Part shown: positions 1,954-37,959 of the stretch, piece after piece
Position numbering within the stretch: the first letter of the stretch is position 1
How the letters are laid out: the number at the start of each line of letters is the position of its first letter
IMG/VR virus record: IMGVR_UViG_3300045950_000325
Coordinates: 1 to 48,452 of that record
DNA length: 48,452 nucleotides
Source of the DNA: a virus
Strand: one strand, 5' to 3'
Notes under the pieces: model-generated
Database searches by the model: none
Seen by the model: the letters and a program-made list of their open reading frames with translations, nothing else
What the model was told of the DNA's origin: nothing
Translations under genes and position numbers: made by a program

Positions 1954-2513
1954 TTTCGCCCCTCGAATGACGCAGCTACTATTCGGTGAGGCAGACTCTT
2001 AATGTCTGACAACTGCACATCAATAGCGGCTTTGATACTACTAATCTCGGCCCCAGCCAGCCGCAGGCGCTGAGCAAATTCCTGTTGGACATCATAGTCC
2101 GGGAGGACGACACATGCTTCGGCAAGTCTATTGAAAAGCATGCGTTCTCGTACCGCACCTCGCGCGAGTGATAGAATGCATTCATGACCGAGTGGTGAGC
2201 GTAGCCAGTGGTAGAAGAAATATGAATCGACGCTTCCTTCGTTGCCACGGAAAACAACGTAGTCCGGGCTGGTAATTCCCGGAAAATCGTCGTCTGTGAC
2301 AAATGCAACCGAGCCGATAAGGATGCGCATCGGGTTGTAAAAGATCGTCCCTGGCGCCACTGGCTTGTATTTGTGGGGGCTTTTCCCCGGGCGTTCCTTC
2401 GCAGGCGCCAATCCATCAACCGTTGCCCCATAAACGGGAAACTGAGCCCAATCGCCGCCTATACCACCTTTGATCTCGGTGAGAACGTCTCCTAGCCTAA
2501 TCTTGTTGGTCAC
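1950..2513 (-). CDS. hsdS: Half-size type I restriction specificity subunit (HsdS)
   Basis: Specificity subunit that would choose the DNA sequence for HsdM and HsdR. I place the start at the GTG at 2513, which overlaps the hsdR TGA as GTGA; the longer in-frame extension upstream is only antisense-quality sequence inside hsdR. This gives 187 aa, about half the usual 400 or more, with one target-recognition domain (about residues 1-145: 'NKIRLGDVLTEIKGG' start, 'FYNPMRI' and 'SPDYVVFRG' typical of TRDs) followed by one conserved helix ('QQEFAQRLRLAGAEISSIKA'). Established half-size HsdS subunits pair as dimers and read symmetric sites. The gene is visibly richer in A+T than hsdR and hsdM, consistent with exchange of the TRD. 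Function inferred from family and operon. Confidence 0.85.
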   Translation of the reverse strand: MTNKIRLGDVLTEIKGGIGGDWAQFPVYGATVDGLAPAKERPGKSPHKYKPVAPGTIFYNPMRILIGSVAFVTDDDFPGITSPDYVVFRGNEGSVDSYFFYHWLRSPLGHECILSLARGAVRERMLFNRLAEACVVLPDYDVQQEFAQRLRLAGAEISSIKAAIDVQLSDIKSLPHRIVAASFEGRK

Positions 2514-5115: not shown

Positions 5116-5502
5116 TCAGAACCGGAACAGCTTTCTCTGCTCGGCCCAGTCTTCCGGCGGGGCTTCGCGCAATGATTCGAGCGTCAAGTCGCGCGACTGA
5201 CGGCCGTCGAGGATGGCCTCAACGAGATCGGGGGCCAGCTGGGCAAGCCGTGAGACCCGGGTCAGGTACGGCGCCGCGATGCCCTCACGCTCGGCCAGTT
5301 CGGCGATGGTGGCGAATTCGCCCGAGTCCAGCATGCGCTTCCAGCGGAACGCCCGCGCCAGCGCCTTGACGAGGGCATCATCGGGGCGGCGCTGGGTGAC
5401 CGCGCCCTCCGGCAGCTGCATTTCCTTCCGCCCGCCGCGTTTCACGAGGCGGAACGGGACATGGATGGTGACGGTTTCGGGGATTGGCGTGGCGCGGGTC
5501 AT
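5116..5502 (-). CDS. Small HTH protein of the recombinase cassette
   Basis: 128-aa protein whose ATG overlaps the recombinase stop codon (ATGA), so it is co-translated with it. The N-terminus is basic ('VPFRLVKRGGRKEM'). The middle (about residues 60-95, 'TIAELAEREGIAAPYLTRVS') reads as a helix-turn-helix of the ParB/KorB or resolvase type, followed by 'LAPDLVEAILDGRQ', which is typical of small proteins encoded after large serine recombinases in alphaproteobacteria. It may be a DNA-binding accessory or directionality factor for the recombinase, or a regulator of the cassette. Neither role is proven for this family. The gene is certain; the function is inferred from HTH and context. Confidence 0.8.
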   Translation of the reverse strand: MTRATPIPETVTIHVPFRLVKRGGRKEMQLPEGAVTQRRPDDALVKALARAFRWKRMLDSGEFATIAELAEREGIAAPYLTRVSRLAQLAPDLVEAILDGRQSRDLTLESLREAPPEDWAEQRKLFRF

Positions 5503-6818
5503 GCGGCTCCTATGTCGGTGGTGACTTCGCGCGCGAGGCCGGCCAGCCCGTCCATGCGCAGCCGGACGTTCAGCCCTTCGGTGCCGATCTCGACCCGCTC
5601 AACCAGCAGCCCGACGATGCGCGCCTGTTCGGCGGGGAAGAGTTCATCCCACAGCGGGTCCAGCCGGGTCAGCGCCGCGCGGGCGTCGGCCTCGGTGGCG
5701 TCGCCGTCCTGCACCCGGGCGGCCTTCCATGTGCCCGCCACGATCTCGGGCTGGCGGAACACCGCGCGGAGCTGGTCGATGACGGCCGCCTCGATCTCGC
5801 CCGCAGGGACGCGGCCGATGGGACAGGCTCCCGCGCCATGCTTCAGCACCGTCTGGCTGACATAGTAGCGGTACAGCTTGTCGCCCTTGCGGGTATGGGT
5901 CGGCGAGAAGGCCGCGCCATCGGGACCATAGACGAGCCCCTTCAGCAATGCGGGTGTGTCGGCACGAGTGCGTGCGGCGCGCTTGCGCGGGCTTTCCTTC
6001 AGGATGGCATGGGCCCTGTCCCAGAGCGCGCGGTCGATGATCGCATCGTGCTCGCCCGGATAGCTGTCGCCCTTGTGGACGGCCTCGCCGATATAGGCGC
6101 GGTTGCCGAGCATCCTGTAGATGTATTTCTTGTCGATCCGGTTGCCGCGCGGGGTCCGGATGCCGCGCGTGCCGACTTCGCGCGCCAGTTCCGTGCAGGA
6201 GCCGATCTCGAGGAAGCGGGCAAAGATCCAGCGCACTTGCGCGGCGGCGTCTTCGTCGACCAGCAGCTTCCGGTTTTCGACGCGGTAGCCGAAGGGCGGC
6301 ACCCCGCCCATCCACATGCCCTTCTTCCGGCTGGCGGCGACCTTGTCGCGGATGCGTTCAGCCGTGACCTCACGCTCGAACTGGGCGAAGGACAGCAGGA
6401 TGTTCAACGTCAGCCGCCCCATGGACGTGGTGGTGTTGAACGACTGGGTGACGGAGACGAAGGTCACGCCGTTACGGTCGAACACCTCGACCAGCTTGGC
6501 GAAGTCGGCCAGCGAGCGGCTGAGGCGGTCGATCTTGTAGACTACGACCACGTCGACCAGCCCGTCCTCGATATCCTCCAGCAGCCTCTTCAATCCGGGG
6601 CGCTCCAGTGTACCGCCCGAAATGCCGCCATCGTCGTACTGATCGCGCACCAGCACCCAGCCCTCGGAGCGTTGGCTGGCGATGTAGGATTCGCAGGCCT
6701 CGCGCTGGGCATGCAGGCTGTTGAATTCCTGCTCCAGCCCTTCCTCGGAGGACTTCCGGGTGTAGACCGCGCAGCGCAGCTTGCGGACGACCTTCGATTT
6801 TTCCGGCGGCTTCGTCAT
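5499..6818 (-). CDS. Large serine recombinase (phage integrase)
   Basis: Site-specific recombinase expected to integrate and excise the prophage. I start it at ATG 6818, which overlaps the upstream DUF2924 stop (ATGA), giving 439 aa. The N-terminal resolvase domain begins at about residue 14 with 'CAVYTRKSSEEG'; S23 is the likely nucleophile. Also present are the recombinase signature 'KIDRLSRSLADF' near residue 100 and 'AQFEREVTAERIRDK' leading into the long helix. The Recombinase domain follows ('FGYRVENRKLLVDEDAAAQV', then 'NRIDKKYIYRMLGNRAYIG'), and then a C-terminal region that resembles the zinc-ribbon domain but has few cysteines. Serine integrases of this class need short, unrelated attB/attP sites, which is why flanking direct repeats are hard to see. 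Confidence 0.93.
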   Translation of the reverse strand: MTKPPEKSKVVRKLRCAVYTRKSSEEGLEQEFNSLHAQREACESYIASQRSEGWVLVRDQYDDGGISGGTLERPGLKRLLEDIEDGLVDVVVVYKIDRLSRSLADFAKLVEVFDRNGVTFVSVTQSFNTTTSMGRLTLNILLSFAQFEREVTAERIRDKVAASRKKGMWMGGVPPFGYRVENRKLLVDEDAAAQVRWIFARFLEIGSCTELAREVGTRGIRTPRGNRIDKKYIYRMLGNRAYIGEAVHKGDSYPGEHDAIIDRALWDRAHAILKESPRKRAARTRADTPALLKGLVYGPDGAAFSPTHTRKGDKLYRYYVSQTVLKHGAGACPIGRVPAGEIEAAVIDQLRAVFRQPEIVAGTWKAARVQDGDATEADARAALTRLDPLWDELFPAEQARIVGLLVERVEIGTEGLNVRLRMDGLAGLAREVTTDIGAA

Positions 6819-7270
6819 CTCCGCCCCCTGTGGTTCTTGAGGCCGAAGAAGACCCACCCGTTCCAGCGGGTGCCGGTGATGGCGCGGGCGATGGCGGACA
6901 GCGACTTGTAGGGCCGCCCCTGCCATTCGAAGCCGTCGGCGGTGACGGTGACGATCTGCTCGACGCCCTGCCACTCGCGCAGCAGCCGCGTGCCGGTGAT
7001 CGGGCGGTCGTGATCGGCGCGGATGATCCGCTTCGCCCGGTCGCCGCCGTCAAGTTCCTCGCCCAGCCGCTCAAGGCGCCGGATCGTCTCCGGCTTCAGC
7101 CCGCCATAGGCCAGTTCCTGGATGCGATAGGCGATACGGCTTTCAAGGTAGCGGCGGTTGAACGGCGGCGGCTCGCTGTCGAACAGGTCGCGCCACTGTT
7201 TCTTCAGGTCGGGCGTCGGCGTGGTCTTGAGCGTGGCCAGGCGCGCTGGGATGGGATCGGGCTTGTTCAT
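6815..7270 (-). CDS. DUF2924 family protein, recombinase-associated
   Basis: 151-aa DUF2924 protein. The start at ATG 7270 is chosen because GGAG lies six bases upstream and the ATG overlaps the stop of the 67-aa gene (ATGA); 20 further in-frame codons upstream look noncoding. Family landmarks: 'LKKQWRDLFDSEPPP', 'RIAYRIQELAYGGL', 'TRLLREWQGVE' and 'WQGRPYKSLSAIARAITGTR' near the end. DUF2924 genes commonly sit directly upstream of serine recombinases in alphaproteobacterial mobile elements. The biochemical role is unknown; a recombination accessory or DNA-binding function is a reasonable inference from this linkage. Basic and without membrane segments. Confidence 0.92.
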   Translation of the reverse strand: MNKPDPIPARLATLKTTPTPDLKKQWRDLFDSEPPPFNRRYLESRIAYRIQELAYGGLKPETIRRLERLGEELDGGDRAKRIIRADHDRPITGTRLLREWQGVEQIVTVTADGFEWQGRPYKSLSAIARAITGTRWNGWVFFGLKNHRGRR

Positions 7271-19483: not shown

Positions 19484-19677
19484 GGCGGTTTCCCCGTGGC
19501 TATGGCGGCGAGCGCCGCAACCCCGAACAGGTCAAGCGCGACGGCTGGAAGGAGCAACGCGTGTTCGCAGTTTCCCTTGACGACCAGAGACTTACTTGGC
19601 CTGAGCGGGAGCTGGTGAGGCAACTCGGCGAGCGTCTCTATGGCGCGCGCCCACAAAATCGAGAGGTTCAGAAATGA
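19480..19677 (+). CDS. Small basic hypothetical protein
   Basis: 65-aa basic protein ('RFPRGYGGERRNPEQVKRD', 'TWPERELVRQLGERLYG') starting at ATG 19480, which overlaps the resolvase stop, and ending in a TGA that overlaps the next ATG. The overlaps on both sides and the clean codon usage support a real gene. I do not recognise a family. High Arg/Lys content suggests nucleic-acid contact, but this is only a guess from composition. Confidence 0.72.
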   Translation: MRRFPRGYGGERRNPEQVKRDGWKEQRVFAVSLDDQRLTWPERELVRQLGERLYGARPQNREVQK

Positions 19678-20102
19678 CCCATTGGACACCAGCCGACGTG
19701 GAGGCGCGGCTCTCCGAGGCGGGGATGATCCTGCGCCGTCTGCCGGAGCCCCGGCGCAACGGATACTTCAGCACATGGCCAGAGATCGTCCACGGTTTCG
19801 CCGACAAGGTGGGCCAGGAGCCGAAGCCCATGCGCGTCTCGCCCTCGCCACGGGACATCGCGCGGATGGAGGAGACGCTGACCTGGACGAACTGCCTCGA
19901 GCCCATCGACGGCAAGATCGTCTGGATGAAGGCGCATGACGAGCGCTGGAAGAACATCTGCTGGCACGTCGGTCTCTGCCACGCCGCTGCGCATCAGCAC
20001 TGGCGCTACGGGCTGTCGCTGATCGCGCTGAACCTCAACAGGCAGCCCTTCAACCGAAAACTGCCGATCCTCGAGATCATCAAGCTGGCGCGCAGCCTGT
20101 AG
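19674..20102 (+). CDS. DUF6362-like phage protein
   Basis: 142-aa protein, last gene of the early plus-strand operon. The opening 'WTPADVEARLSEAGMILRRL' with 'GYFSTWPEIVHGF' and the later 'ICWHVGLCHAAAHQHWRYGL' and 'SLIALNLNRQ' match a phage family I know as DUF6362. The C-terminal third looks like a helix-turn-helix ('RWKNICWHVGLCHAAAHQHW'), so a DNA-binding role is possible. ATG 19674 overlaps the previous stop and has GAGAGG upstream. Ends with TAG, showing that TAG is read as stop in this phage. Confidence 0.75.
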   Translation: MTHWTPADVEARLSEAGMILRRLPEPRRNGYFSTWPEIVHGFADKVGQEPKPMRVSPSPRDIARMEETLTWTNCLEPIDGKIVWMKAHDERWKNICWHVGLCHAAAHQHWRYGLSLIALNLNRQPFNRKLPILEIIKLARSL

Positions 20103-25385: not shown

Positions 25386-26027
25386 ATGCAGGGCATGAGC
25401 GAACGCCACTACGCCGCCCATGCCGGGTTGTCGCGGGGCGCCATCCAGAAGGCGAAGGCGGCCGAGCGGCTGGTCCTCTATCCCGACGGCAGCATCAATG
25501 CGGACGCCAGCGACGCTCGGCGAGCGGAAACCACCGACCCGTCCAAGACCCGCAAGCCGCCCGCGCCGAAGCTGAAGCCTGTCCCCGAGGCGGCGCGCCC
25601 GTCGTCGGTTGGCGCTGCACCCGCCAGGCTGAAGCCGGTGCCGGAGGCCGCCGTCGCGGCCGTCGGCGAGACCCTGCGGGAAGAGGGGCTTGCGGCGCCG
25701 GCGGTCGGGGGCGGCACGACCTTCCTGCAGGCCAAGACGGCGAACGAGGTGCTGAAAGCCCAGGAACGCCGCATCCGGCTGCAAAAGCTGAAGGGCGAGT
25801 TGGTCGACCGCGCCCGCGCCGAAACACTGATGTTCCGCCTTGCCCGCGAGGAACGCGATGCCTGGGTGACCTGGCCGTCCCGGGTGGCGGCGCTGATGGC
25901 CTCGGAACTGGCGGCGGCCTTGGGTGGGGGCATCGCAGTGGAGGCGGCGCTGATGCAGAAGGTTCTCGAATCCCATGTTCGCGCCCAGCTCGACAGCCTT
26001 GCCGAGGTTCGAACGGGCATTGGATGA
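25386..26027 (+). CDS. Terminase small subunit
   Basis: 213-aa protein at the start of the late operon, directly followed by and overlapping the large terminase. The N-terminus 'SERHYAAHAGLSRGAIQKAK' is a winged-helix/HTH of the Nu1 type, which binds phage DNA at the packaging site. A Pro/Lys-rich linker contains a duplicated phrase LKPVPEAA (near residues 62 and 82). The C-terminus 'AQERRIRLQKLKGELVDRAR' and the helices after it ('EERDAWVTWPSRVAALMASE') are typical of GpA-partner small subunits, where this region contacts the large subunit. GGAG six bases before ATG 25386. Confidence 0.87.
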   Translation: MQGMSERHYAAHAGLSRGAIQKAKAAERLVLYPDGSINADASDARRAETTDPSKTRKPPAPKLKPVPEAARPSSVGAAPARLKPVPEAAVAAVGETLREEGLAAPAVGGGTTFLQAKTANEVLKAQERRIRLQKLKGELVDRARAETLMFRLAREERDAWVTWPSRVAALMASELAAALGGGIAVEAALMQKVLESHVRAQLDSLAEVRTGIG

Positions 26028-27960
26028 CGACATCCTGGCCTTCGACGGCGCGCGGGACCTGCTGCGCGCCTGGTCGCAGGGCATCCGGCCCGACCCGGAC
26101 CTGACGGTCTCGGAATGGGCCGACCGGCACCGCTGGCTCTCATCCCGCGCCTCGGCTGAGCCGGGCCGGTATCGGACGGTGCGCACGCCCTACATGCGCG
26201 AGATCATGGATGCGCTCTCGCCCGGCAGTCCGCTGCAGCGGGTGGTGCTCATGAAGGCGGCGCAGGTGGGCGCGACAGAAGCGGGCAACTGCTTCATCGG
26301 CTTTGTCATGCATCACGCTCCGGGGCCGATGCTGGCGGTCCAGCCGACGGTGGAACTGGCCAAGCGCAATTCGCGCCAGCGGATCGACCCGCTGATCGAG
26401 GAAAGCCCGGAGCTGCGGGCAAAGGTCAAACCGGCGCGTTCGCGCGATGCGGGCAATACGATGCTGTCCAAGGAATTCGCCGGTGGCATCCTGATCATGA
26501 CTGGTGCGAATTCCGCCGTGGGCCTGCGCTCCACCCCGGCGCGGTATCTGTTTCTGGACGAGGTCGACGCCTATCCGGCCTCGGCTGATGAAGAGGGTGA
26601 TCCGGTGACGCTGGCGGAGGCGCGCTCGCTCACCTTTGCCCATCGGCGCAAGATCTTCCTTGCCTCGACCCCCACGATCCGGGGGCTGAGCCGGATCGAG
26701 CGGGAATTCGAGGCCAGCGACCAGCGGCGGTTCTTCGTGCCATGCCCACATTGCCGCCATCGCCAATGGCTGAAGTTCGACCGGCTGCGCTGGCAGAAGG
26801 GGAGCCCCGAGACAGCGGAATACCACTGCGAGGGCTGTGATCAGCCCATCGCCGAGCATCACAAGACGGCCATGCTGGCCGCGGGCGAATGGCGTGCGAC
26901 GGCAACCGGGGCAGACCCGCTGACGGTCGGCTATCACCTCTCGGCGCTCTACTCGCCCATCGGCTGGCTGGCCTGGTCGGGGATCGCACGGTCCTGGGAG
27001 GCAGCACAGGGCAGCGACGAGGCGCTGCGGGCATTCCGGAACACGATCCTCGGCGAGACCTGGTTCGAGAGTGGCGAAGCCCCGGACTGGCAGCGGCTCC
27101 ACGACCGGCGCGAGGACTGGAAGCCCGGCACGGTGCCTGCGGGCGGGCTGTTCCTGACCGCCGGGGCGGATGTGCAGAAGGACCGGATCGAGGTTGACGT
27201 CTGGGCCTGGGGCCGCGGCCTCGAAAGCTGGCTGATCGACCATCTCGTGATCGAGGGCGGCCCGGGTGATGCGGGGTGCTGGCAGAAGCTGACCGACCTT
27301 CTGGGCCGGGTGTGGGCGCATGAAAGCGGCCAGCACCTGACCATCGCGAAGCTGGCCATCGACACAGGCTACGAGACCAGCGCGGTCTATGCCTGGGCGC
27401 GCCAGGTCGGCTTTGGCCAGGTCGCCCCGGTGAAGGGGCTCGAGGGCTTCAACCGCTCGAGCCCTGTCACCGGTCCGACCTATGTCGATGCCACCGTTGG
27501 TGGCAAGCGTCTGCGCCGCGGCGTGCGGCTCTGGACGGTTGCCACTTCGACCTTCAAGGCGGAAACCTACCGCTTCCTGCGGCAGGATCGACCGACGAGG
27601 GAAGAGATCACGGCTGGTGCCGCGTTCCCGGCGGGAACCGTGCATCTGCCGGACTGGGTCGACAGCGAATGGCTGAAACAGCTGACCGCCGAGCAGTTGG
27701 TGACGGTGAAGACCAGGCGCGGGTTCACGAAGCTCGAATGGCAGAAACTGCGCGAGCGCAACGAGGCGCTTGACTGCCGGGTCTATGCCCGCGCCGCCGC
27801 CTGGATCGCTGGGGCCGATCGCTGGCCGGAAGCCCGGTGGCAGGAGCTGGAGCGACAGCTGGTCGTGGCGGGGGAAAGGAACGCGGGTGACGCGCCCCCG
27901 AAGCAACCAGCACGACCGTCGGCGCGCCGGCGGACGGTGCGGTCGAGCTACATGGGGTGA
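25975..27960 (+). CDS. Terminase large subunit, GpA family
   Basis: 661-aa packaging motor and nuclease of the lambda GpA type. It starts inside the small-subunit gene (53-base overlap). N-terminal 'SEWADRHRWLSSRASAEPGR' is the classic GpA opening. The ATPase has 'MKAAQVGATEAGNCF' (the family's divergent Walker A) near residue 100 and 'YLFLDEVDAYP' (Walker B) near 193, with 'FLASTPTIRGLSRIE' as the coupling motif. A zinc-like 'CPHCRHRQW...CEGC' lies near 260-285. The nuclease domain follows ('LTAGADVQKDRIEVDVWAWG', 'LAIDTGYETSAVYAW'). It would package DNA from concatemers. No inactivating change seen. Confidence 0.95.
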   Translation: MFAPSSTALPRFERALDDDILAFDGARDLLRAWSQGIRPDPDLTVSEWADRHRWLSSRASAEPGRYRTVRTPYMREIMDALSPGSPLQRVVLMKAAQVGATEAGNCFIGFVMHHAPGPMLAVQPTVELAKRNSRQRIDPLIEESPELRAKVKPARSRDAGNTMLSKEFAGGILIMTGANSAVGLRSTPARYLFLDEVDAYPASADEEGDPVTLAEARSLTFAHRRKIFLASTPTIRGLSRIEREFEASDQRRFFVPCPHCRHRQWLKFDRLRWQKGSPETAEYHCEGCDQPIAEHHKTAMLAAGEWRATATGADPLTVGYHLSALYSPIGWLAWSGIARSWEAAQGSDEALRAFRNTILGETWFESGEAPDWQRLHDRREDWKPGTVPAGGLFLTAGADVQKDRIEVDVWAWGRGLESWLIDHLVIEGGPGDAGCWQKLTDLLGRVWAHESGQHLTIAKLAIDTGYETSAVYAWARQVGFGQVAPVKGLEGFNRSSPVTGPTYVDATVGGKRLRRGVRLWTVATSTFKAETYRFLRQDRPTREEITAGAAFPAGTVHLPDWVDSEWLKQLTAEQLVTVKTRRGFTKLEWQKLRERNEALDCRVYARAAAWIAGADRWPEARWQELERQLVVAGERNAGDAPPKQPARPSARRRTVRSSYMG

Positions 27961-27970
27961 TGCCGAGGGC

Positions 27971-28864
27971 TCACTGCAGGCAGCATTTCTTGAACTTCTT
28001 GCCGCTGCCACAGGGGCAAGGATCGTTTCGGCCAACTGACGGCGCCGGGTTACGCCAGAAATTGGCCATGGGAATCACACGCGGGTCCGGGTTTTCCTTC
28101 TGTGCCTTCTGCTTCTCGAAATAGGCGTCGGTGTAGCAGTACCATCGCGACAGCTCCTCGACTGCGTCCTCGATCAGGCCATGGCGATAGCGGCGATTGG
28201 CGGAAATGCTCCCGGCTGCGCGCGTGGCTTCCAGATCGGCGAGGAAATCAGAAAAGCTGCAGTAATCCTTCGGGATTTGCCCCTTGTCGAAGATCGTGCG
28301 CACGGCGTCGGTCATGTCCTCCAGCCCCAGGTCGGCCACAGCCTCGGTCCAGCCGATCAGCAGATCGGCCGGGGCTTTGGGCTGACGGGCAAGGAAATTG
28401 CGGATGAAGCTCTCGACCACCGGCCGTCGCGCAGGGTGCAGCTCCGCCAGCAGGACAAGGGCGCTCATCATTGCACTGCGGGCGAAATCATCAGCGCGCA
28501 GGTCCATGATTGCCTCGAACAACGGCTCGAGATCGCCATCGAAGGTTCCCGCGATCATGCGAAACGCGCTTTCGGTTACCGCGTCGCCAAGCGTCGCATC
28601 GAGCGTCCGGGGCGAGCGGCGCATCAGGCGCAGAAGCGGGCGGTAAGCGCGTGTCTCGCGCCATTGCGCAAGCAGATAGACGATCGGGATCAGGGCCATC
28701 AGATCGGCATCCGCCATGGCGCCGGATCGCTGCTGACTGACCCGATCGAGCAGATCGACGAAGATCGGCGCCATCGCATCGCGCTGCGCCGAGGCGGCGG
28801 CCATGGCCTCCTTGGGGAAAATGTCGTTTCGCGAAAGATCGCGCAGGATTTCGGTGGGGGTCAT
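27971..28864 (-). CDS. DUF1186/SEC-C motif protein (accessory gene in the late operon)
   Basis: 297-aa protein on the minus strand between terminase and gpW-like genes. Starting at ATG 28864 (GGAAG seven bases upstream) it opens 'MTPTEILRDLSRNDIFPKEA', the pattern of DUF1186 proteins, which are all-helical repeats. The last 16 residues, 'GRNDPCPCGSGKKFKKCC', are the SEC-C zinc-binding tail also found at the end of SecA. SEC-C tails bind zinc and contact SecB or ribosomes in SecA; the role in DUF1186 proteins is unknown. The gene is oriented against all its neighbours and fits the pattern of a moron. Its stop lies ten bases from the terminase stop. Confidence 0.9.
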   Translation of the reverse strand: MTPTEILRDLSRNDIFPKEAMAAASAQRDAMAPIFVDLLDRVSQQRSGAMADADLMALIPIVYLLAQWRETRAYRPLLRLMRRSPRTLDATLGDAVTESAFRMIAGTFDGDLEPLFEAIMDLRADDFARSAMMSALVLLAELHPARRPVVESFIRNFLARQPKAPADLLIGWTEAVADLGLEDMTDAVRTIFDKGQIPKDYCSFSDFLADLEATRAAGSISANRRYRHGLIEDAVEELSRWYCYTDAYFEKQKAQKENPDPRVIPMANFWRNPAPSVGRNDPCPCGSGKKFKKCCLQ

Positions 28865-28929
28865 GGATTCGCTTCCAGCAGGCGACAAGGCCCTCAGATG
28901 AAACAGGTCACAGGGACGGGTCAACTCGC

Positions 28930-29145
28930 ATGCCGACAATCACGGAACTCCGCGCCCGCCGCGAGGCGCTGGCCGCGCAGCGCGCCTCGGGCGTGGCACG
29001 GGTCAGCTATGACGGCAAGACCGTGGATTATCGCAGCGTGGCGGAGATCGACCGGGCCATCGAGGTGCTGGATCGCGAGATCGCCTCGGCCGAGGGACGG
29101 CGGATTGTGCGGCAGGTGCGCGTCATGACCGACAAGGGGCTCTGA
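28930..29145 (+). CDS. gpW-like head-tail connector protein
   Basis: 71-aa protein ('MPTITELRARREALAAQRAS', 'YRSVAEIDRAIEVLDREIAS') matching the gpW family by length, helix-strand-helix layout and position between terminase and portal, where lambda W lies. gpW plugs the filled head and prepares it for tail joining. No strong ribosome-binding site is seen; the divergent accessory gene starts 66 bases upstream, so this gene has been separated from its terminase partner by the insertion. Confidence 0.85.
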   Translation: MPTITELRARREALAAQRASGVARVSYDGKTVDYRSVAEIDRAIEVLDREIASAEGRRIVRQVRVMTDKGL

Positions 29146-29147
29146 GC

Positions 29148-30716
29148 ATGGGTCTGTTCGACAGGTTCCGCCGCGGGGCCGTTGCTGGCGGGGCGACCGG
29201 TGGCCCTGCGTCCTCCGGGCTTACGCGGCTCCCCCGGAGCCACGGTCCCTCCGGACTGCGCGCCCGGCTCGAAGGGTCCATGGCGAGGCGACGGCTCAAG
29301 GGCTGGAATCCGCCGCTCGAGAACATCAACGCGCTGGTGGCCTCGGGTGGACCGCGCCTTCTGGCCCGTGCCCGCGAACTGGTGGTGACCAACGGCTACG
29401 CGGCGAATGCTTGCGAGGCCTTTGCGGCGAACCTGGTCGGTGACGGGATCAAGCCCTCGTCGCTGATCGAGGATGCGGACCTGCGCGAACGAGTCCAGAA
29501 GCTCTGGCTGGCCTGGACGGACGAGGCCGATGCGGACGGGCTGACCGACTTCTACGGGCTGCAGGCCATGGTCGCGCGCGAGATGTTCGTCGCGGGCGAG
29601 TGCTTTGTCCGACTGCGCCCGCGTCGGCCCGAGGATGGTCTCATGGTGCCCATGCAGTTGCAGCTTCTCCAGTCCGAGATGCTGCCCTTCGAGAAGACCG
29701 AGACAGCCGCCAACGGCAACCGCATCCGCTGCGGGATCGAATTCGACGCAATCGGGCGGCGCGTGGCTTATCACTTCCGCCGCCGCCATCCGGGCGACAG
29801 CACGGACCAGCGGGTGGCGGTGCCGGATACAGTCCGCGTCCCGGCCGGGGACGTTCTGCATATCTACCGGCCCATAGATGCCGGCCAGATCCGGGGCCTT
29901 CCGCATGTGGCACCCGCCATGGTGCGGCTGTTCCTGCTCGACCAGTACGATGACGCGGAGCTTGACCGGAAGAAGACCGCGGCAATGTTCGCGGGCTTTA
30001 TCACCAAGACCGCGCCGGAAGAGCCGATGCTGGGCGAAGGCGCCGCCGATCCTGACGGCGCCGCGATCGCCAGCCTCGAGCCCGGCACGATGCAGGTCCT
30101 GCTGCCGGGAGAGGACGTGAAGTTCTCGAGCCCGGCCGATGTGGGCGGGGGTTACGAGGCCTTCCAGTACCGCACCTTGCTCGCCGTCTCGGCATCGCTG
30201 GGGCTGCCCTATCACCTCGTGACCGGCGATGTGCGGCAGGCGAACTACTCGAGCCTTCGGGCCGAACTGGTGGAGTTCCGTCGCCGCATCGGGCAGCTGC
30301 AGCATGGCGTGATCGTGCACCAGTTCTGCCGTCCGATCTGGGCGCGCTGGATGGAGACGGCGGCGCTCGCGGGCGCGCTCGATCTGCCCGGGTTTGCCGC
30401 CGCACCCGGCCGGTTCCGCGCCGCGCAATGGATCCCGCCGCGCTGGGACTGGGTCGATCCCTTGAAGGATATCCAGGCACAGGTCCTGGCGATGGAGGCC
30501 GGAATCACCTCGCGGCGCAAGGTGGTCGAGGCCACCGGCTATGACGTCGAGGAGGTCGACCGCGAGAACGCCGCCGATGCCCGGCGGTCGGCCGAACTGG
30601 GCCTCCGATACCGGACCAGCCCCGGCGAGGCGCAAGGCGCACGGGCCACGCCCACAAGGCTGCCCGACCCGGACACCGATGGGTCCGGCGCGGACGCTGA
30701 ACCCGAACAGGAGTGA
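29148..30716 (+). CDS. Portal protein, lambda family
   Basis: 522-aa portal forming the head vertex through which DNA enters. Family landmarks: 'NALVASGGPRLLARARELVV', 'NGYAANACEAFAANLVGDGI', 'VAGECFVRLRPR', 'IYRPIDAGQIRGLPHVAPAM' and 'YSSLRAELVEFRRRIGQLQ' near residue 370, all typical of the lambda portal family. The acidic, disordered C-terminal 45 residues ('PTRLPDPDTDGSGADAEPEQ') are likewise usual. Starts two bases after the gpW-like stop. The next gene is four bases downstream, so the head genes are tightly packed here. Confidence 0.95.
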   Translation: MGLFDRFRRGAVAGGATGGPASSGLTRLPRSHGPSGLRARLEGSMARRRLKGWNPPLENINALVASGGPRLLARARELVVTNGYAANACEAFAANLVGDGIKPSSLIEDADLRERVQKLWLAWTDEADADGLTDFYGLQAMVAREMFVAGECFVRLRPRRPEDGLMVPMQLQLLQSEMLPFEKTETAANGNRIRCGIEFDAIGRRVAYHFRRRHPGDSTDQRVAVPDTVRVPAGDVLHIYRPIDAGQIRGLPHVAPAMVRLFLLDQYDDAELDRKKTAAMFAGFITKTAPEEPMLGEGAADPDGAAIASLEPGTMQVLLPGEDVKFSSPADVGGGYEAFQYRTLLAVSASLGLPYHLVTGDVRQANYSSLRAELVEFRRRIGQLQHGVIVHQFCRPIWARWMETAALAGALDLPGFAAAPGRFRAAQWIPPRWDWVDPLKDIQAQVLAMEAGITSRRKVVEATGYDVEEVDRENAADARRSAELGLRYRTSPGEAQGARATPTRLPDPDTDGSGADAEPEQE

Positions 30717-30720
30717 CAGG

Positions 30721-31749
30721 ATGAAGAGCTGGTACACGATCCGCGCCCGGGGCCGAGGCACGGAAGGATCTCGCGCGGAAGTGCTGATCTATGACGAGAT
30801 CGGCGCCTATGGCGTCAGCGCCAAGGGGTTCCTTGCCGAACTCGGCGCGCTGCCGGACGGGGTGCCGATCGACCTGCGGCTCAACAGCCCCGGCGGCTCG
30901 GTCTTCGATGCCGTCGCGATCTATAACGCCCTGCAGCGGCATGACGGCACCATCACCGTCTGGATCGACGGCATTGCCGCTTCGGCCGCGTCCTACGTCG
31001 CCATGGCGGGCGACGAGATCGTCATGCCTGAGAACGCCTTCCTGATGATCCACGACCCTTCGGGCCTGGTCATGGGCACTGCCGCGGACATGCGCGAGAT
31101 GGCCGACACCATGGACAAGATCGCGGCCGGCATGGTCCGAGGCTATGCGGCCCGGTCCGGACGCGCCGAGGAAGAGATCGCGGCCCTGATGGCGGCCGAG
31201 ACCTGGTTCGACGCGGAAGCGGCCCTGGAGGCGGGGTTGGCCACCCGCAGGATCGAGCCGGTGCGGATCGCCGCCAGCTTCGACATCGGCCGTTTCCGCA
31301 ACGCGCCGCCTGTGCTGGTGGACGCGGTTGCGGCCGCTGTCGCCGATCCAACCCAGGAAGCGGAACCGGATCGTGTGGAAGCCGACGAGGGCGCCGAGGT
31401 TGTCTTCGATCACGCCGATCCTGCGACCGCGCCGGAGCCCGGCCCGGAACCGGCCCGGCCGTCGAACCCTGACGCCGCAGCGCCTCACATCGACCCTGCG
31501 GCCCTCCGGGCCGAAGCCATCGCCCATGCCCGGGCCGTGATCGACCTCTGTCGTCTCGCGGGCCAGCCGCAGATGGCGGGGCGCTTCCTGGAGGAGGACG
31601 CCAGCCTCGACGCGGTGCGCGCGAGCCTTCTCTCCTCCCGCGCCGAGGCCACGCCCGCGATCTCGCCGCATCACCCGCAACCCGGGCCCAGCCCCAGTGC
31701 CCGCCCCTGGGGCGACGTGATCGCCCGCACCTTCAAGCTGAAAGGATGA
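30721..31749 (+). CDS. Head maturation protease, ClpP-like (S14)
   Basis: 342-aa prohead protease with scaffold-like tail. Start at ATG 30721 just after the portal stop. The ClpP-like core has 'LRLNSPGGSVFDAVAIYNAL' near residue 53, the nucleophile S88 in 'DGIAASAASYVAMAGD', and H111 in 'LMIHDPSG'. Residues from about 200 on are Pro/Ala/Glu-rich ('ADPTQEAEPDRVEADEGAEV'), then a helix ('RAEAIAHARAVIDLCRLAG'), the layout of lambda gpC/Nu3 fusions that also serve as scaffold. Cleaves prohead proteins during capsid maturation. Active-site residues intact. Confidence 0.93.
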   Translation: MKSWYTIRARGRGTEGSRAEVLIYDEIGAYGVSAKGFLAELGALPDGVPIDLRLNSPGGSVFDAVAIYNALQRHDGTITVWIDGIAASAASYVAMAGDEIVMPENAFLMIHDPSGLVMGTAADMREMADTMDKIAAGMVRGYAARSGRAEEEIAALMAAETWFDAEAALEAGLATRRIEPVRIAASFDIGRFRNAPPVLVDAVAAAVADPTQEAEPDRVEADEGAEVVFDHADPATAPEPGPEPARPSNPDAAAPHIDPAALRAEAIAHARAVIDLCRLAGQPQMAGRFLEEDASLDAVRASLLSSRAEATPAISPHHPQPGPSPSARPWGDVIARTFKLKG

Positions 31750-31753
31750 TCCC

Positions 31754-32119
31754 ATGACCACGCTGGTTGAAGGCAAACACCCCGGCGGCTTCCTCGTCTG
31801 GGAAGCCTTCCGCGACTACACCCGCGAGACCATCACCATCGGCTCAGGCATGCTCGAACCCGGAACGGTGCTGGGCAAGATCACCGTATCGGGCAAATAC
31901 GCCGCCCACGACCCGGCCGCGGTCGATGGCACCGAGACCGCCGTGGCCCTGCTCTGGGGCCGCGCCGATGCCAGTGCTGGCGAGGTCGTGGCCGTCGCGG
32001 TGGTGCGCGGTCCCGCCATCGTCAATCGCCACGACCTGGTCTTCGCAGGCACGCCGACCGAGGGCGAGATCGCCGCGGCGCATGCAGCACTTCTGGCAGC
32101 CGGCATTCTCGTGCGCTGA
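31754..32119 (+). CDS. Head decoration protein (gpD-like)
   Basis: 121-aa capsid decoration protein placed between protease and major capsid, as in lambda. 'GSGMLEPGTVLGKIT' and 'ALLWGRADASAGEVVAVAVV' with 'GPAIVNRHDLVFA' are typical of the lambda head decoration protein D family. It trimerises on the expanded head and stabilises it. Start at ATG 31754, directly following the protease stop. If the capsid gene is truly broken, this protein would have nothing to bind. Confidence 0.9.
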   Translation: MTTLVEGKHPGGFLVWEAFRDYTRETITIGSGMLEPGTVLGKITVSGKYAAHDPAAVDGTETAVALLWGRADASAGEVVAVAVVRGPAIVNRHDLVFAGTPTEGEIAAAHAALLAAGILVR

Positions 32120-32142: not shown

Positions 32143-33156
32143 ATGGCGACCATGGACATCTTTGAAGGCGATGCCTTCTCGATCATCGAACTGACCCGCG
32201 CGCTGGAGAACATCCCCTTCAAGCCCGCGATCCTCTCGGGCTCGAACCTCTTCGGGCCGCGCGGCGTGCGCGCGCGCACCGTGGTGATCGAGAGCCGGGA
32301 CGGCACGCTGCAGCTGATCCCGTTCTCCGAGCGTGGCTCGGCCTACGAGAGCCAGGTACCGGAACGCCGCGAGATGCGGGCCTTCGTTGTGCGCCAGTTC
32401 AAGAAGCAGGACGTGCTCTGGGCCTCGGAAATCTAGGGGATCCGCGACCACGGTTCCGAAACCGCCACCCAGCAGGTGCAGACCGAGGTCGCCCGCAAGC
32501 TGGGGCGGCTCAGGAACGACGCCGAGGCCACTTTCGAGTTCCACCTCTTCAACGGCATCCAGGGCGTGGTGAAGGATCCGAAGGACGGGGCGGTGGTGGT
32601 GAACTACTTCACCGAATTCGGCATCACGCCTGCCACGGAAGTCGACTTCGACCTCGACAACGCGAGTCCGGCCTCGGGAGCGCTGCGCAAGCGCTGCCAG
32701 GCGCTGATCGAGAGCGTCGAGGACAGCCTTGGTGGACTGGCGGCCGGTCAGGTGCAGCTGCGCGCCGAATGTGGATCAGCTTTCTTCGCCGATCTGGTCG
32801 CCCACAAGGAGGTGCGCGAGACCTATCTCAACACCGCCGCTGCCGCGGACCTGCGGGGCAGGGTAGGGGAGGAGGTCAGCTTTGGCGGCATCACCTTCCG
32901 CCGCTACCGGGGCGGCCTCGGCTTTGGGGTGCCGACCGACAAGGCATACTTCTATCCCGAGGGTGTCGAGGGCCTCTTCGAGATCTACTACGCCCCGGCC
33001 GACACCTTCGAGACGGTGAACACGCTGGGCCTGCCGCTCTATGCGCGCATGATCCCGGACCGCGACCGCGACGAATGGGTGCGCCTCGAGATCGAGAGCA
33101 ATCCCCTCCCGATCTGCACGCGGCCGCAGGTTCTGCGCAGCGCGCGGCGGACGTGA
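32143..33156 (+). pseudogene. Major capsid protein (gpE family) interrupted by an in-frame TAG
   Basis: Lambda gpE-type major capsid gene, 337 codons long if the internal stop is ignored, close to lambda E at 341. A TAG lies at codon 98 (32434-32436): 'KKQDVLWASEI' then stop, then 'GIRDHGSETATQQVQTEVAR' in the same frame. In the family this position reads ...EIQGIR..., so CAG to TAG, a single C-to-T change, explains it. Upstream 97 codons and downstream 239 codons are otherwise intact, with 'GTLQLIPFSERGSAYES', 'EFHLFNGIQGVVKDPKDG' and 'DKAYFYPEGVEGLFEIYYAP'. Expressed protein would be a 97-aa fragment unless the stop is suppressed. TAG ends other genes here, so code reassignment is unlikely. 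Confidence 0.92.
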
Positions 33157-33467
33157 TGAGTGCCTTCGTTGCCGCGCTGGAGGAACTCTTCGCCGATCCC
33201 AATCTTGCACGGGATGTCGTCCATGTTGCGGATGGCGGCGCGCCCAGATTGATCCGCGCGGTCATGCGCCGCGCGGACGCAATCACCGACTTCGGCGATG
33301 CCCGGCTCTGGTCGGAAACCACCCGCCTCGACCTGCGAGTGGCGGAGGTGCCAGCCCCGCGCCCGGGCGACCGGATCGAAATCGATGGCGAGGCCTTCCT
33401 CATCCAGGGCGAACCCGTCCGCGACCGCGAGCGACTGGTCTGGACCATTGACTTGCGCCCGGCGTGA
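33156..33467 (+). CDS. Head-tail joining protein (gpFII-like)
   Basis: 103-aa protein starting at ATG 33156, overlapping the capsid stop (TGATG). 'MRRADAITDFGDARLWSETT' and 'RPGDRIEIDGEAFLIQGEPV' followed by 'RERLVWTIDLRP' match the gpFII head-tail joining family in length and beta-strand pattern. It binds the portal/gpW complex and creates the tail docking site. Its stop overlaps the GTG of the next gene. Assigned from sequence look and position just after the capsid gene, as in lambda. Confidence 0.85.
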   Translation: MSAFVAALEELFADPNLARDVVHVADGGAPRLIRAVMRRADAITDFGDARLWSETTRLDLRVAEVPAPRPGDRIEIDGEAFLIQGEPVRDRERLVWTIDLRPA

Positions 33468-34102
33468 CGGCGATGAAGCTGAAGCTCGACATCGATCCGG
33501 ACATCGTCGCGATGATGGCGGCCGAGGTCGCAGCAGGGGAACGCGCGGTCTCGGCGGCGATCCGTGAGGCTGGAACCGGCCTCAAAACCGCCTGGCGCGG
33601 GCAGATCACTGGCGCGGGACTGGGTGCACGGCTCGCCCGAACCATCCAGTCCGAACAGTTCCCGAAGGCCACGCCCAGCCTGAACGCGGCGGCCGTGGTC
33701 TGGTCCAAGGCCCCGGTCATCGTCGGCGCGCATGACACCGGCCCGCTGATCCGGTCCAGGAACGGCTTCTGGCTGGCGATCCCAACCGCGGCGGCGGACA
33801 AGTCACAGCGCGGCGGTCGGATCAGTCCCGGTGAGTGGGAGCGCCGCACCGGCCTGCGCCTGCGGTTCATCTACCGCCGTACCGGCCCGAGCCTCCTGGT
33901 CGCCGAAGGGCGGCTGAACACGAAGGGCAGGGCAGTCGCATCCCGCTCAAGGACTGGCCGGGGCCTCGTCACAGCGCCGATCTTCCTCCTGGTGCCGCAG
34001 GTCAAGCTGCCGAAGCGGCTGGATCTGGCGCGGGACGCCGGACGGGCGCACGATTCCGTGCCGGGGTTGATCGTGGCGAATTGGGTGGAGGGACGCGCGT
34101 GA
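33464..34102 (+). CDS. Phage tail component, DUF6441-like
   Basis: 212-aa basic protein. 'KLDIDPDIVAMMAAEVAAGE', 'AGTGLKTAWRGQITGAGLGA' and 'VIVGAHDTGPLIRSRNGFWL' match tail proteins I know as DUF6441, which stand where lambda Z (minor tail) is. Start either at GTG 33464 (GTGA overlap) or ATG 33473. Probably a tail completion or minor tail protein. The next plus-strand gene is 940 bases away because a minus-strand accessory gene lies in between. Confidence 0.8.
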   Translation: MTAMKLKLDIDPDIVAMMAAEVAAGERAVSAAIREAGTGLKTAWRGQITGAGLGARLARTIQSEQFPKATPSLNAAAVVWSKAPVIVGAHDTGPLIRSRNGFWLAIPTAAADKSQRGGRISPGEWERRTGLRLRFIYRRTGPSLLVAEGRLNTKGRAVASRSRTGRGLVTAPIFLLVPQVKLPKRLDLARDAGRAHDSVPGLIVANWVEGRA

Positions 34103-34139: not shown

Positions 34140-35003
34140 TCAGTTCGGACGCTCCACGGGCTGAGCGCGCTCGATGTCAAACTGCATGAACCGATCGAAG
34201 AGCGGCGTCTTCTGGTATAGTGGATCCTGGACTCGCGTCGCTTCGACCGCCGGCATCGACTTGAGGAGACCGAACCACGACAAAGGTGTCAGATAGACGG
34301 CCCGCATGTAGACCTCGAGCACATTGAGCGGTTCGTCGAGGAATTTCTCGGGAGGCACGAAGCAGTAACGCGTCAACTGGGGTACAGATCGCGGCAAGTC
34401 GGCCGTGATCGAGAGGCACCAGAAGACGATCCCCGCCTGCTCATGGACCCAAGGATGCGCCAACTTGGTCAGGGTTCTTGGGTTGACCCGCGCGAAGGCC
34501 GCTTCGAAAACCGCCCGCACCATCGATGCATCGATCAGGTTCTCGCGCAGGCGGCGACCCGCTTCCGTGACAGCTAGCCGCGCTCCATCGATCTGGACGA
34601 GCCGGGCGGCAATCGCGAGTGCCATCAGGAAGTCGAGAGGGCAGATGGTTTCCTGGTCAAGCGGGCGTCTGAGATGCCTGGTCATCTCGGTGTCGAAATC
34701 CGGCCAATCCATTGTCGTCAGCAGAAGATCGAGGCTTTCGGAGGTCATGGCGCCGCTCGGCAGCAACGCAATCCGTCCTTCGCCGATCAGGGTCAGATAA
34801 AGGCGCAAATTGCGGAAGATGACCGATCCAGCAATGTCAGCGGCGTTGCCGTGATAGTCGATGTGCAGAGGTGATCGAGGCGAGTGGAAGGGCACCAGAT
34901 CGTAGAAAGGCCCCGCGCCCAGTTGCAGCCAGGCAGGATGCACGTCGTTCAGCCACCTGGTCAGGTTGGATGGAAGTGGTGCCGATAGTCTGAGTCTCGA
35001 CAT
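34140..35003 (-). CDS. Hypothetical protein, accessory gene in the tail module
   Basis: 287-aa protein of no family that I recognise, opposite in direction to its tail-gene neighbours and slightly lower in GC. Soluble; no membrane segments. The region 'PLDFLMALAIAARLVQIDGA' with 'RLAVTEAGRRLRENL' (about residues 120-155) looks like a winged helix. 'WVHEQAGIVFWCLSITADLP' and 'VLEVYMRAVYLTPLSWFGLL' are hydrophobic-helix segments of a globular fold. Two-domain architecture. The position between DUF6441-like and gpU-like genes, with its own strand, is that of a moron, so expression in the lysogen and a host-directed or anti-phage role are plausible but unproven. Confidence 0.85.
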   Translation of the reverse strand: MSRLRLSAPLPSNLTRWLNDVHPAWLQLGAGPFYDLVPFHSPRSPLHIDYHGNAADIAGSVIFRNLRLYLTLIGEGRIALLPSGAMTSESLDLLLTTMDWPDFDTEMTRHLRRPLDQETICPLDFLMALAIAARLVQIDGARLAVTEAGRRLRENLIDASMVRAVFEAAFARVNPRTLTKLAHPWVHEQAGIVFWCLSITADLPRSVPQLTRYCFVPPEKFLDEPLNVLEVYMRAVYLTPLSWFGLLKSMPAVEATRVQDPLYQKTPLFDRFMQFDIERAQPVERPN

Positions 35004-35044: not shown

Positions 35045-35464
35045 ATGCCCACCCCCCGCGAAACCATCCTCGCCGCGCTCCACGCGCGGCTCCTGGCGCT
35101 GCCAGCCACCGTCCTGCGCGGCGAGGTGCTGCCCGAGCGCGTGCCCGCTGCTGGCCTCCTGATCCTGCGCGATGGCGAGCCGGGGGAGCCGGAGGTCACG
35201 CTGTCGCCGCTACGCCATCACTACCAGCACCGGGCCGAGATCGAGGCGGTGGTCCAAGGCGCCGACCGTGACGCCGCCTTCGACACGCTCTGCGCCAGCG
35301 TGGGCGCAGCGATTGCCGTCGACCGGACACTCGGCGGCCTCTGTGACTGGCTCGAGGCGGAGGCACCGCGACCGGTCGATCTGCCGGTCGAGGGGGCGGC
35401 GGGACTGAAAGCCGCCGTGATCCCGGTGGTCCTGCACTACTCGCTGGCGGACGCGCTCGGCTGA
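35045..35464 (+). CDS. Tail terminator-like protein (gpU-like)
   Basis: 139-aa protein ('PRETILAALHARLLALPATV', 'RHHYQHRAEIEAVVQGADRD', 'VDLPVEGAAGLKAAVIPVVL') in the position of lambda U, between minor tail and tail tube genes. The alpha/beta pattern and length fit tail terminators, which cap the tail tube and join it to the head. Its last 28 bases overlap, tail to tail, the 3' end of the bactofilin gene on the other strand. Called from position, size and general pattern. Confidence 0.78.
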   Translation: MPTPRETILAALHARLLALPATVLRGEVLPERVPAAGLLILRDGEPGEPEVTLSPLRHHYQHRAEIEAVVQGADRDAAFDTLCASVGAAIAVDRTLGGLCDWLEAEAPRPVDLPVEGAAGLKAAVIPVVLHYSLADALG

Positions 35465-35862
35465 GGCGTGACCGGATAGGGAACCGCCGGTTCTGCAGGT
35501 GCCATGCGACGCAAGTCACCTTCGATGATCGCGCCCGCTGCAACTCTGAGCGCGCCGTATGTGATCCGACCCGTGAGCCTGGCGGTCGGGTGTATGTCCA
35601 CGACCGTCGCGGTGACGTCGCCCATGACCGTGCCGCCCAGGTCGAGCTGCTCGGCGGTGATATCACCCTGCACCTTGGCATCGGATTCGACCGTCAGATG
35701 CGGACCCGCCAGGTTGCCGTTGATCTGGCAATGCACCTGGATGCGGCCCGTGCTCGTGACATGGCCGTCGATCTGGAGATCGGCGGCGAGGATCGAGGAT
35801 TTGGCTGACGCGCCTGCTGGGGCTGTCAGCACCGGCTTCTGGACAGGGTCCCGGTAACTCAC
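35437..35862 (-). CDS. Bactofilin family protein (polymer-forming cytoskeletal)
   Basis: 141-aa bactofilin on the minus strand inside the tail operon. Starting at GTG 35862 (GGA about eight bases upstream), the N-terminal 20 residues ('SYRDPVQKPVLTAPAGASA') are flexible. Then a right-handed beta-helix core of repeated turns follows: 'ILAADLQIDGHVTSTGRI', 'VHCQINGNLAGPHLTVES', 'DAKVQGDITAEQLDLGGTV', 'GDVTATVVDIHPTARLTGRI', 'ALRVAAGAIIEGDL'. The C-terminal tail is Pro-rich. Bactofilins polymerise into filaments used in bacterial cell shape, stalks and chromosome/plasmid positioning. One in a prophage is unexpected. Its final codons overlap the gpU-like gene tail to tail. Confidence 0.9.
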   Translation of the reverse strand: MSYRDPVQKPVLTAPAGASAKSSILAADLQIDGHVTSTGRIQVHCQINGNLAGPHLTVESDAKVQGDITAEQLDLGGTVMGDVTATVVDIHPTARLTGRITYGALRVAAGAIIEGDLRRMAPAEPAVPYPVTPQPSASASE

Positions 35863-35884
35863 GCGGCATTCCTTCGTTTCTGGT

Positions 35885-35906
35885 GCGCAGGCCGACCTGC
35901 CTGCGC
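35885..35906. promoter_or_regulatory. Hairpin in the gap between bactofilin and tail tube genes
   Basis: GCGCAGG (35885-35891) and CCTGCGC (35900-35906) form a 7-bp inverted repeat with an 8-base loop. It lies between two divergent start codons (bactofilin at 35862, tail tube at 35958), so it may be an operator or an mRNA leader hairpin. Weak evidence. Confidence 0.35.
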
Positions 35907-35957
35907 GTGTCTCAAACAATCTTGGTGCGGAACGTACCCCCCTGCAAGGAGAAGAAC

Positions 35958-36896
35958 ATGGCACGTGCGCAAGGCGCGCGGGCGCAGATGGCGCTTGCGT
36001 TCGAGACGACTTACGGCACCCCGCCGGTGAGCGGCTTCACCCGGATGCCCTTTGCCAGCACCACGCTCGGCTCCGAACAGCCGCTCCTGTCGAGCGAGCT
36101 TCTGGGCTACGGGCGCGATCCCCTGGCCCCGGTCAAGGATGCGGTGACGGCGGATGGCGATGTGGTGGTGCCGATCGACGCCGAGGCCTTCGGCTTCTGG
36201 CTGAAGGCGGCCTTCGGCGATCCGGTCACAACCGGCACCGGTCTCTACAGCCACGAGTTCCGCTCCGGGAGCTGGACCCTGCCGTCGATGTCGATCGAGA
36301 CCGCCATGCCGGAGGTGCCGCGTTATGCGATGTATTCCGGCTGCGTCCTGGACCAGCTCAGCTGGCAGGTGCAACGCTCGGGCCTCCTCACCGCCACGGC
36401 CCGGCTCATCGCGCAGGGCGAGACGATCGCCGCCACGAGCGGGGCTGGCACGCCGGAGGAGCTCTCCCTCCTGCGCTTCGGGCACTTCAACGGCGCGATC
36501 AGCCGTGATGGCGTGGCCCTCGGCAACGTGGTCTCGGCCGAGATCACCTATGCCAACAGTCTCGACCGGATCGAGACCATCCGCGCGGATGGCAAGATCG
36601 ACGGCGCTGATCCCTCCATCGCCGCCCTCACGGGGCGGATCGAGGTGCGCTTCGCCGACCAGACGCTGGTGGCACAGGCGCAGACCGGCGATCCCTGCGA
36701 GATCGGCTTCGCCTACACCCTGCCCACGGGCGAGAGCTTCAGCTTCACCGCCCATGCCGTCTACCTGCCGCGGCCCCGGATCGAGATCCCGGGCCCGCAG
36801 GGCATCCAGGCCAGCTTTGACTGGCAGGCCGCCCGGGCCGAGACCACCGGCCGGATGTGCACCGCCGTCCTCGTCAACTCTGTCGCAACCTATTGA
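35958..36896 (+). CDS. Tail tube protein
   Basis: 312-aa major tail (tube) protein. AAGGAGAAG precedes ATG 35958. 'FETTYGTPPVSGFTRMPFAS', 'PIDAEAFGFWLKAAFGDPVT', 'CVLDQLSWQVQRSGLLTATA' and 'FGHFNGAISRDGVALGNVVS' are typical of siphovirus tail tube proteins of this type, which polymerise into the hexameric tube around the tape measure protein. It is directly before the tail assembly chaperone pair, the expected order. Mostly beta, no signal peptide. Confidence 0.9.
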   Translation: MARAQGARAQMALAFETTYGTPPVSGFTRMPFASTTLGSEQPLLSSELLGYGRDPLAPVKDAVTADGDVVVPIDAEAFGFWLKAAFGDPVTTGTGLYSHEFRSGSWTLPSMSIETAMPEVPRYAMYSGCVLDQLSWQVQRSGLLTATARLIAQGETIAATSGAGTPEELSLLRFGHFNGAISRDGVALGNVVSAEITYANSLDRIETIRADGKIDGADPSIAALTGRIEVRFADQTLVAQAQTGDPCEIGFAYTLPTGESFSFTAHAVYLPRPRIEIPGPQGIQASFDWQAARAETTGRMCTAVLVNSVATY

Positions 36897-37347: not shown

Positions 37348-37589
37348 ACCAGCCGCAGACGCTGGAGGGCGCGCAGGTCTGGGATCTGGCGCAGCGCCTC
37401 GGCGGGCAGCTGCGGGTCCTCCCCGGCGTGGTCATCGGCTGGGACATGGGTGCGGCCTTGGCCTTGGGCGCCGCCCTCGGCATCTCCCCACCCGCCATCG
37501 CCGAACTTCTGCCGGCGCTCGAGGCGGTGATGGTGCGCCGCGTGAACGAACAAGTCGCCGGTGGGGATCGGGGCGGCCCTAGCCCTTGA
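36910..37589 (+). CDS. Tail assembly chaperone, -1 frameshift product (gpGT-like)
   Basis: 226-aa fusion made by slipping back one base at 37248-37254. The -1 frame after the site continues with good coding character: 'RLIALADWVFGGGDGYCAAC' (with CAAC...CPDC cysteines), 'AQVWDLAQRLGGQLRVLPGV' and 'AIAELLPALEAVMVRRVNEQ', ending at TGA 37587-37589. The shifted part has no start codon or ribosome-binding site of its own, which supports production by frameshift. In lambda GT links the tape measure to tube protein. The last 11 bases overlap the end of vapC on the other strand. Confidence 0.85.
37248..37254 (+). other. Programmed -1 frameshift slippery heptamer
   Basis: A AAA AAC in the zero frame (codons GAA AAA AAC, with the A at 37248 as first base). 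This X XXY YYZ heptamer is one of the strongest known slippery sequences. Reading shifts to AAA AAA CGC, opening a 110-codon extension. Position near the end of the first chaperone gene is exactly where siphoviruses carry it. Confidence 0.9.
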
Positions 37590-37959
37590 TCTTGCGGATC
37601 AGCGTGATGCCCGGCAGCCCCTCGAAATGTGCGTCGCAGGTCAGAAGGCTGGCCCCGCGCACACGGGCCGTAGCAAAGACGATGGCGTCGGCCGACGCAA
37701 GCTTGTGCTCGCGGCAGGCGTCGGCGGCCGCAAGTGCGATCTCGGTGTCGAGCGGAACCACCTGGCAGACCTGGGTGAAGGCGATCACCTGATCCGCCTT
37801 GTCCTCGCCGACCTCGCGGGTCAGCCATTTGGCGAGTTCGAGCTGCACCATGGTCGGCACCAGCCAGTCCGCCTGATCGGGCAGGTGTTCTGCCAGCCGG
37901 TCGCCGGTGGCCGAACCGATCAGCCATTCGATCCAGGCGGATGTGTCGACGAGGATCAT
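37579..37959 (-). CDS. vapC: VapC-like PIN-domain toxin
   Basis: 126-aa PIN-domain ribonuclease. The four acidic residues of the active site are visible: D5 in 'MILVDTSAWIEW', E41 in 'VQLELAKWL', D91 in 'LASADAIVFATA' and D109 in 'LLTCDAHFEGLPG'. VapC toxins cut tRNA or rRNA sites when freed from VapB. The ATG overlaps the antitoxin stop (TGATG), the standard antitoxin-first order. Minus strand, between tail chaperone and tape measure genes, and its TAG end overlaps the chaperone by 11 bases. Likely acts to stabilise the prophage or to block infecting phages. Confidence 0.93.
   Translation of the reverse strand: MILVDTSAWIEWLIGSATGDRLAEHLPDQADWLVPTMVQLELAKWLTREVGEDKADQVIAFTQVCQVVPLDTEIALAAADACREHKLASADAIVFATARVRGASLLTCDAHFEGLPGITLIRKIKG

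Follow-up and report, generated by a model that had tools for sequence, protein, structure and literature searches.

A probable young nonsense substitution at codon 98 of the major capsid gene in an otherwise intact lambda-type Rhodobacteraceae prophage

The window analysed here is 48,452 bases long and constitutes a virus record of its own. It contains a lambda-type major capsid gene that is interrupted by an in-frame TAG. The question raised by this locus is whether the TAG is a genuine lesion, a codon that is translated or compensated in some way, or an error in the record. The gene and its stop are described by three features:

32143 to 33156, plus strand: major capsid protein gene of the lambda gpE type (Pfam PF03864), interrupted at codon 98
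32434 to 32436, plus strand: the in-frame TAG, codon 98
32143 to 32436, plus strand: open frame of 97 amino acids upstream of the TAG

The frame begins with an ATG at 32143 and ends with a natural TGA terminating at 33156, with 239 codons downstream of the TAG. The coordinates, the position of the stop and the lengths of both parts, all previously given in an earlier note, proved exact on checking the sequence. When read through, the product exhibits a full-length Pfam match to Phage_cap_E (E=3e-78), residues 16-334 aligning with positions 4-327 of the 329-position profile. As recorded, the gene is an interrupted member of this family and not a working one. A structure prediction using 15 close relatives reached a mean pLDDT of 31, a very low confidence, and was left out of the analysis. 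Internal restart of the capsid was also considered: GTG codons occur in frame at 32476 and from 32566 onward, but without a convincing ribosome site, and a product restarted there would miss at least a third of the protein at its N-terminus, both of which make restart unlikely.

The genes surrounding the capsid gene form a head module whose components are as follows:

25975 to 27960, plus strand: terminase large subunit gpA (Pfam GpA_ATPase and GpA_nuclease), intact and open in comparison with L277
28930 to 29145, plus strand: head-tail adaptor Ad1 (PHROG 2545)
29148 to 30716, plus strand: portal protein of the lambda family (Pfam Phage_portal_2), intact and open in comparison with sister loci
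30541 to 31749, plus strand: ClpP-like head maturation protease (Pfam CLP_protease), intact and open in comparison with relatives
31754 to 32119, plus strand: head decoration protein D (Pfam HDPD), intact and open in comparison with relatives
33156 to 33467, plus strand: head-tail attachment protein (Pfam Phage_attach, E=1.4e-26), intact
33464 to 34102, plus strand: DUF6441 gene (Pfam PF20039), intact

A gpA-type terminase, a lambda-family portal, a ClpP-like protease, D, E and the attachment protein thus follow one another in the order of a lambda-type head module. The same succession, from terminase and adaptor through to DUF6441, is found in the Rhodobacteraceae lambda-type capsid-E prophages L086 (Tabrizicola soli), L002 and L082, the head genes of L086 and L002 being 93-94% identical to those of the window at the DNA level. 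Whereas the capsid gene is uninterrupted in these three prophages, that of the window is not. Compared with L086, L002 and L277, the frames of the terminase, adaptor, portal, protease, D, attachment and DUF6441 genes are all open, and neither deletions nor gene loss is seen in the head operon, which bears out the earlier description of an operon intact apart from its capsid gene.

To note, two minus-strand genes lie among or next to the head genes. A DUF1186/SEC-C gene (27971-28939), located between terminase and adaptor, looks like an inserted passenger. The second, coding for 287 amino acids without a Pfam match (34140-35003), lies between DUF6441 and the tail genes; its product shares 98.6% amino-acid identity with L086, but at the DNA level alignments to most of the other relatives skip this stretch.

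Tail genes are located downstream of the head module, and a large serine recombinase is encoded on the minus strand at 5499-6974. The left end of the window, adjoining this recombinase, is occupied by type I restriction-modification genes on the minus strand, HsdM-like (1-1953) and HsdR-like (2510-4918). At the right end, a DeoR-type regulator gene displays 82% DNA identity to Tabrizicola soli, consistent with a prophage integrated in the genome of a Rhodobacteraceae bacterium. For this flanking gene, no genome closer than Tabrizicola soli was found among 32 in the genus and 397 in the family, and no near copy was found in plasmid and phage collections.

The interruption probably goes back to a nonsense substitution that arose spontaneously, and recently, in the capsid gene of a lambda-type Rhodobacteraceae prophage that is intact in other respects. 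The codon census of relatives is one line of evidence. Codon 98 is a glutamine codon in 210/210 distinct nucleotide versions of the gene (198 CAG, 12 CAA), and none of these relatives carries a stop there. Capsid relatives 95-99% identical occur in Rhodobacteraceae genomes and in IMG/VR. A search of the latter with the family pattern bearing a stop at codon 98 returned no match, while the matching pattern with glutamine was found in at least 120 stretches. Among more distant capsids of solved structure, the motif at this site is still EIQG or DIQG. The earlier note had taken glutamine as the family codon and had called for a comparison with sister prophages; the census agrees with the former, and the comparison reveals a lesion common to none of them. 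Within the window, the TAG is the single in-frame one among 33 credible genes (11,707 codons, with 302 CAG and 50 CAA), and no tRNA gene is present in its 48,452 bases. An independent in-frame TAA was observed at codon 273 of the capsid gene of L092, an uncultured Marivita contig (gene at 558-1568). Such lesions therefore belong to a low-frequency background, sporadic stops in the capsid gene arising through mutation or error in about 1 in 100 records of these collections.

The age of the stop can be gauged from the 239 codons that follow it. The nearest relative, L002, is 96.6% identical at the DNA level, and beyond codon 98 the two differ by 24 synonymous changes and a single amino-acid difference (dS 0.143, dN 0.0019). 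When changes are assigned to branches using L086 and L088, this sole amino-acid difference falls on the L002 branch, and the window branch retains seven synonymous and no amino-acid changes. With a synonymous site fraction of 0.237, the chance that seven of seven changes would be synonymous is of the order of 1e-4. Had the gene drifted free of constraint along the entire branch, ~20 amino-acid changes would be anticipated, and as none is seen the gene was under constraint for nearly all of the branch time. The stop is thus much younger than the split from L002, in agreement with the recent origin proposed earlier, or else it is not real or not effective. One stop represents one event; the feature that goes beyond chance is the absence of any other damage. 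Codon census, branch counts and intact head neighbours together support a single substitution in an otherwise undamaged gene. Conversely, a gene that is functional, suppressed or mis-called would equally be expected to lack other lesions, and a base error would give the identical sequence.

The latter alternative, a base-call, consensus or assembly error in a capsid gene that is actually uninterrupted, is the most serious competitor, unlikely but with an appreciable chance of being correct. It would account for a gene that, apart from a single discordant base, has every appearance of full constraint, and for a stop that is seen in one record only. Against it, the head operon is free of any other apparent error, be it a frameshift or a stop. 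Moreover, the gene can undergo 3033 single changes, and a random error would have had to hit one of the 87 that create a stop.

A second alternative retains the stop as real, and supposes that it is read through sufficiently to yield functional capsid, either because termination leaks or because the host has an amber suppressor tRNA. The lack of decay past the stop is compatible with such a mechanism, and leucine or glutamate at this position in some phages, among distant homologues, suggests that the protein could accept a residue other than glutamine there. Bacterial genes with in-frame stops but low dN/dS have moreover been reported (PMC7918605). On the other hand, a phage-borne suppressor tRNA is rejected, the window containing no tRNA gene, and the stop is conserved in none of the 210 relatives, hence showing no sign of a maintained or programmed readthrough signal. 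The capsid is also required in hundreds of copies, a demand that low-level leakage would not satisfy. Readthrough is therefore considered improbable. The broader proposition that the stop is both real and functional, the prophage being a conditional or helper-dependent passenger whose capsid needs either host amber suppression or a related resident prophage, is judged quite improbable as well.

The helper version of this proposition, in which a prophage with a genuine lesion is maintained as a passenger and obtains its capsid from another, related prophage of the same host cell, seems likewise improbable. It draws on the gene content of nine related genomes that were searched, several of which possess two or three capsid-E copies with 88-99% identity (three in G033, two each in G038 and G040). 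These genomes, from which L082, L089 and L144 originate, illustrate that several related prophages can reside in a single Rhodobacteraceae host. Packaging in trans would nevertheless be a further assumption on top of the nonsense substitution, and it offers no rival account of how the stop arose.

The weakest alternative is a changed code in which TAG would specify glutamine. In code-15 crAss-like phages, TAG is read as glutamine in several structural proteins, and several such codons can occur within one protein (PMC9523058). The window resembles these phages in having a TAG where a structural gene has a glutamine codon, the codon found in its relatives, but differs by its single TAG among credible genes, by its lack of a tRNA gene and by genes that terminate at TAG:

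19674 to 20102, plus strand: DUF6362 gene (Pfam PF19889), with a genuine TAG stop according to the stop census
35437 to 35964, minus strand: bactofilin gene (Pfam PF04519), with a genuine TAG stop according to the list of TAG-ending ORFs
37579 to 37959, minus strand: PIN-domain (VapC-like) gene (Pfam PF01850), with a genuine TAG stop according to the same list

The late genes (4848 codons) hold 104 CAG and one TAG, where a code-15 phage would have many, and a changed code is refuted by the codon counts together with these three genes, whose identities Pfam confirms. The earlier note had already argued from the three genes against such a code. The bactofilin and PIN-domain genes lie between plus-strand tail genes and look like inserted passengers.

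Returning to the nonsense substitution, this explanation takes the base as real, supposes that no suppressor acts and predicts a particle defect. A recent substitution would have turned codon 98 into TAG, translation of the capsid would stop after 97 residues and no full-length subunit would be made; the prophage by itself should then not form heads, and would be defective unless a host suppressor or a related prophage supplied the capsid. The earlier qualification of the prophage as non-productive thus holds when it acts alone, but not without reserve, since rescue is possible and related bacteria often harbour at least two near-identical capsid genes.

It is routine for prophages to carry a sporadic nonsense mutation. 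Work by Bobay et al. from 2014, cited in PMC8224337, is said to offer an example of defective prophages whose structural genes contain point nonsense mutations. Like known defective prophages, the window is integrated and otherwise recognisable, with one structural gene inactivated: in the record, the frame of this essential particle gene ends after codon 97. It differs from them in that the damage is confined to one very recent substitution, in a head operon without deletions. The finding is real in the record but ordinary, this being one of the ordinary routes by which a prophage loses particle production, and it bears on no open question. For annotation, the capsid should be recorded as one interrupted gene and not as two genes, and gene content alone is no sufficient ground for listing the prophage as productive. 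If the stop is real, prophage decay is observed here at its first step, ahead of any other damage.
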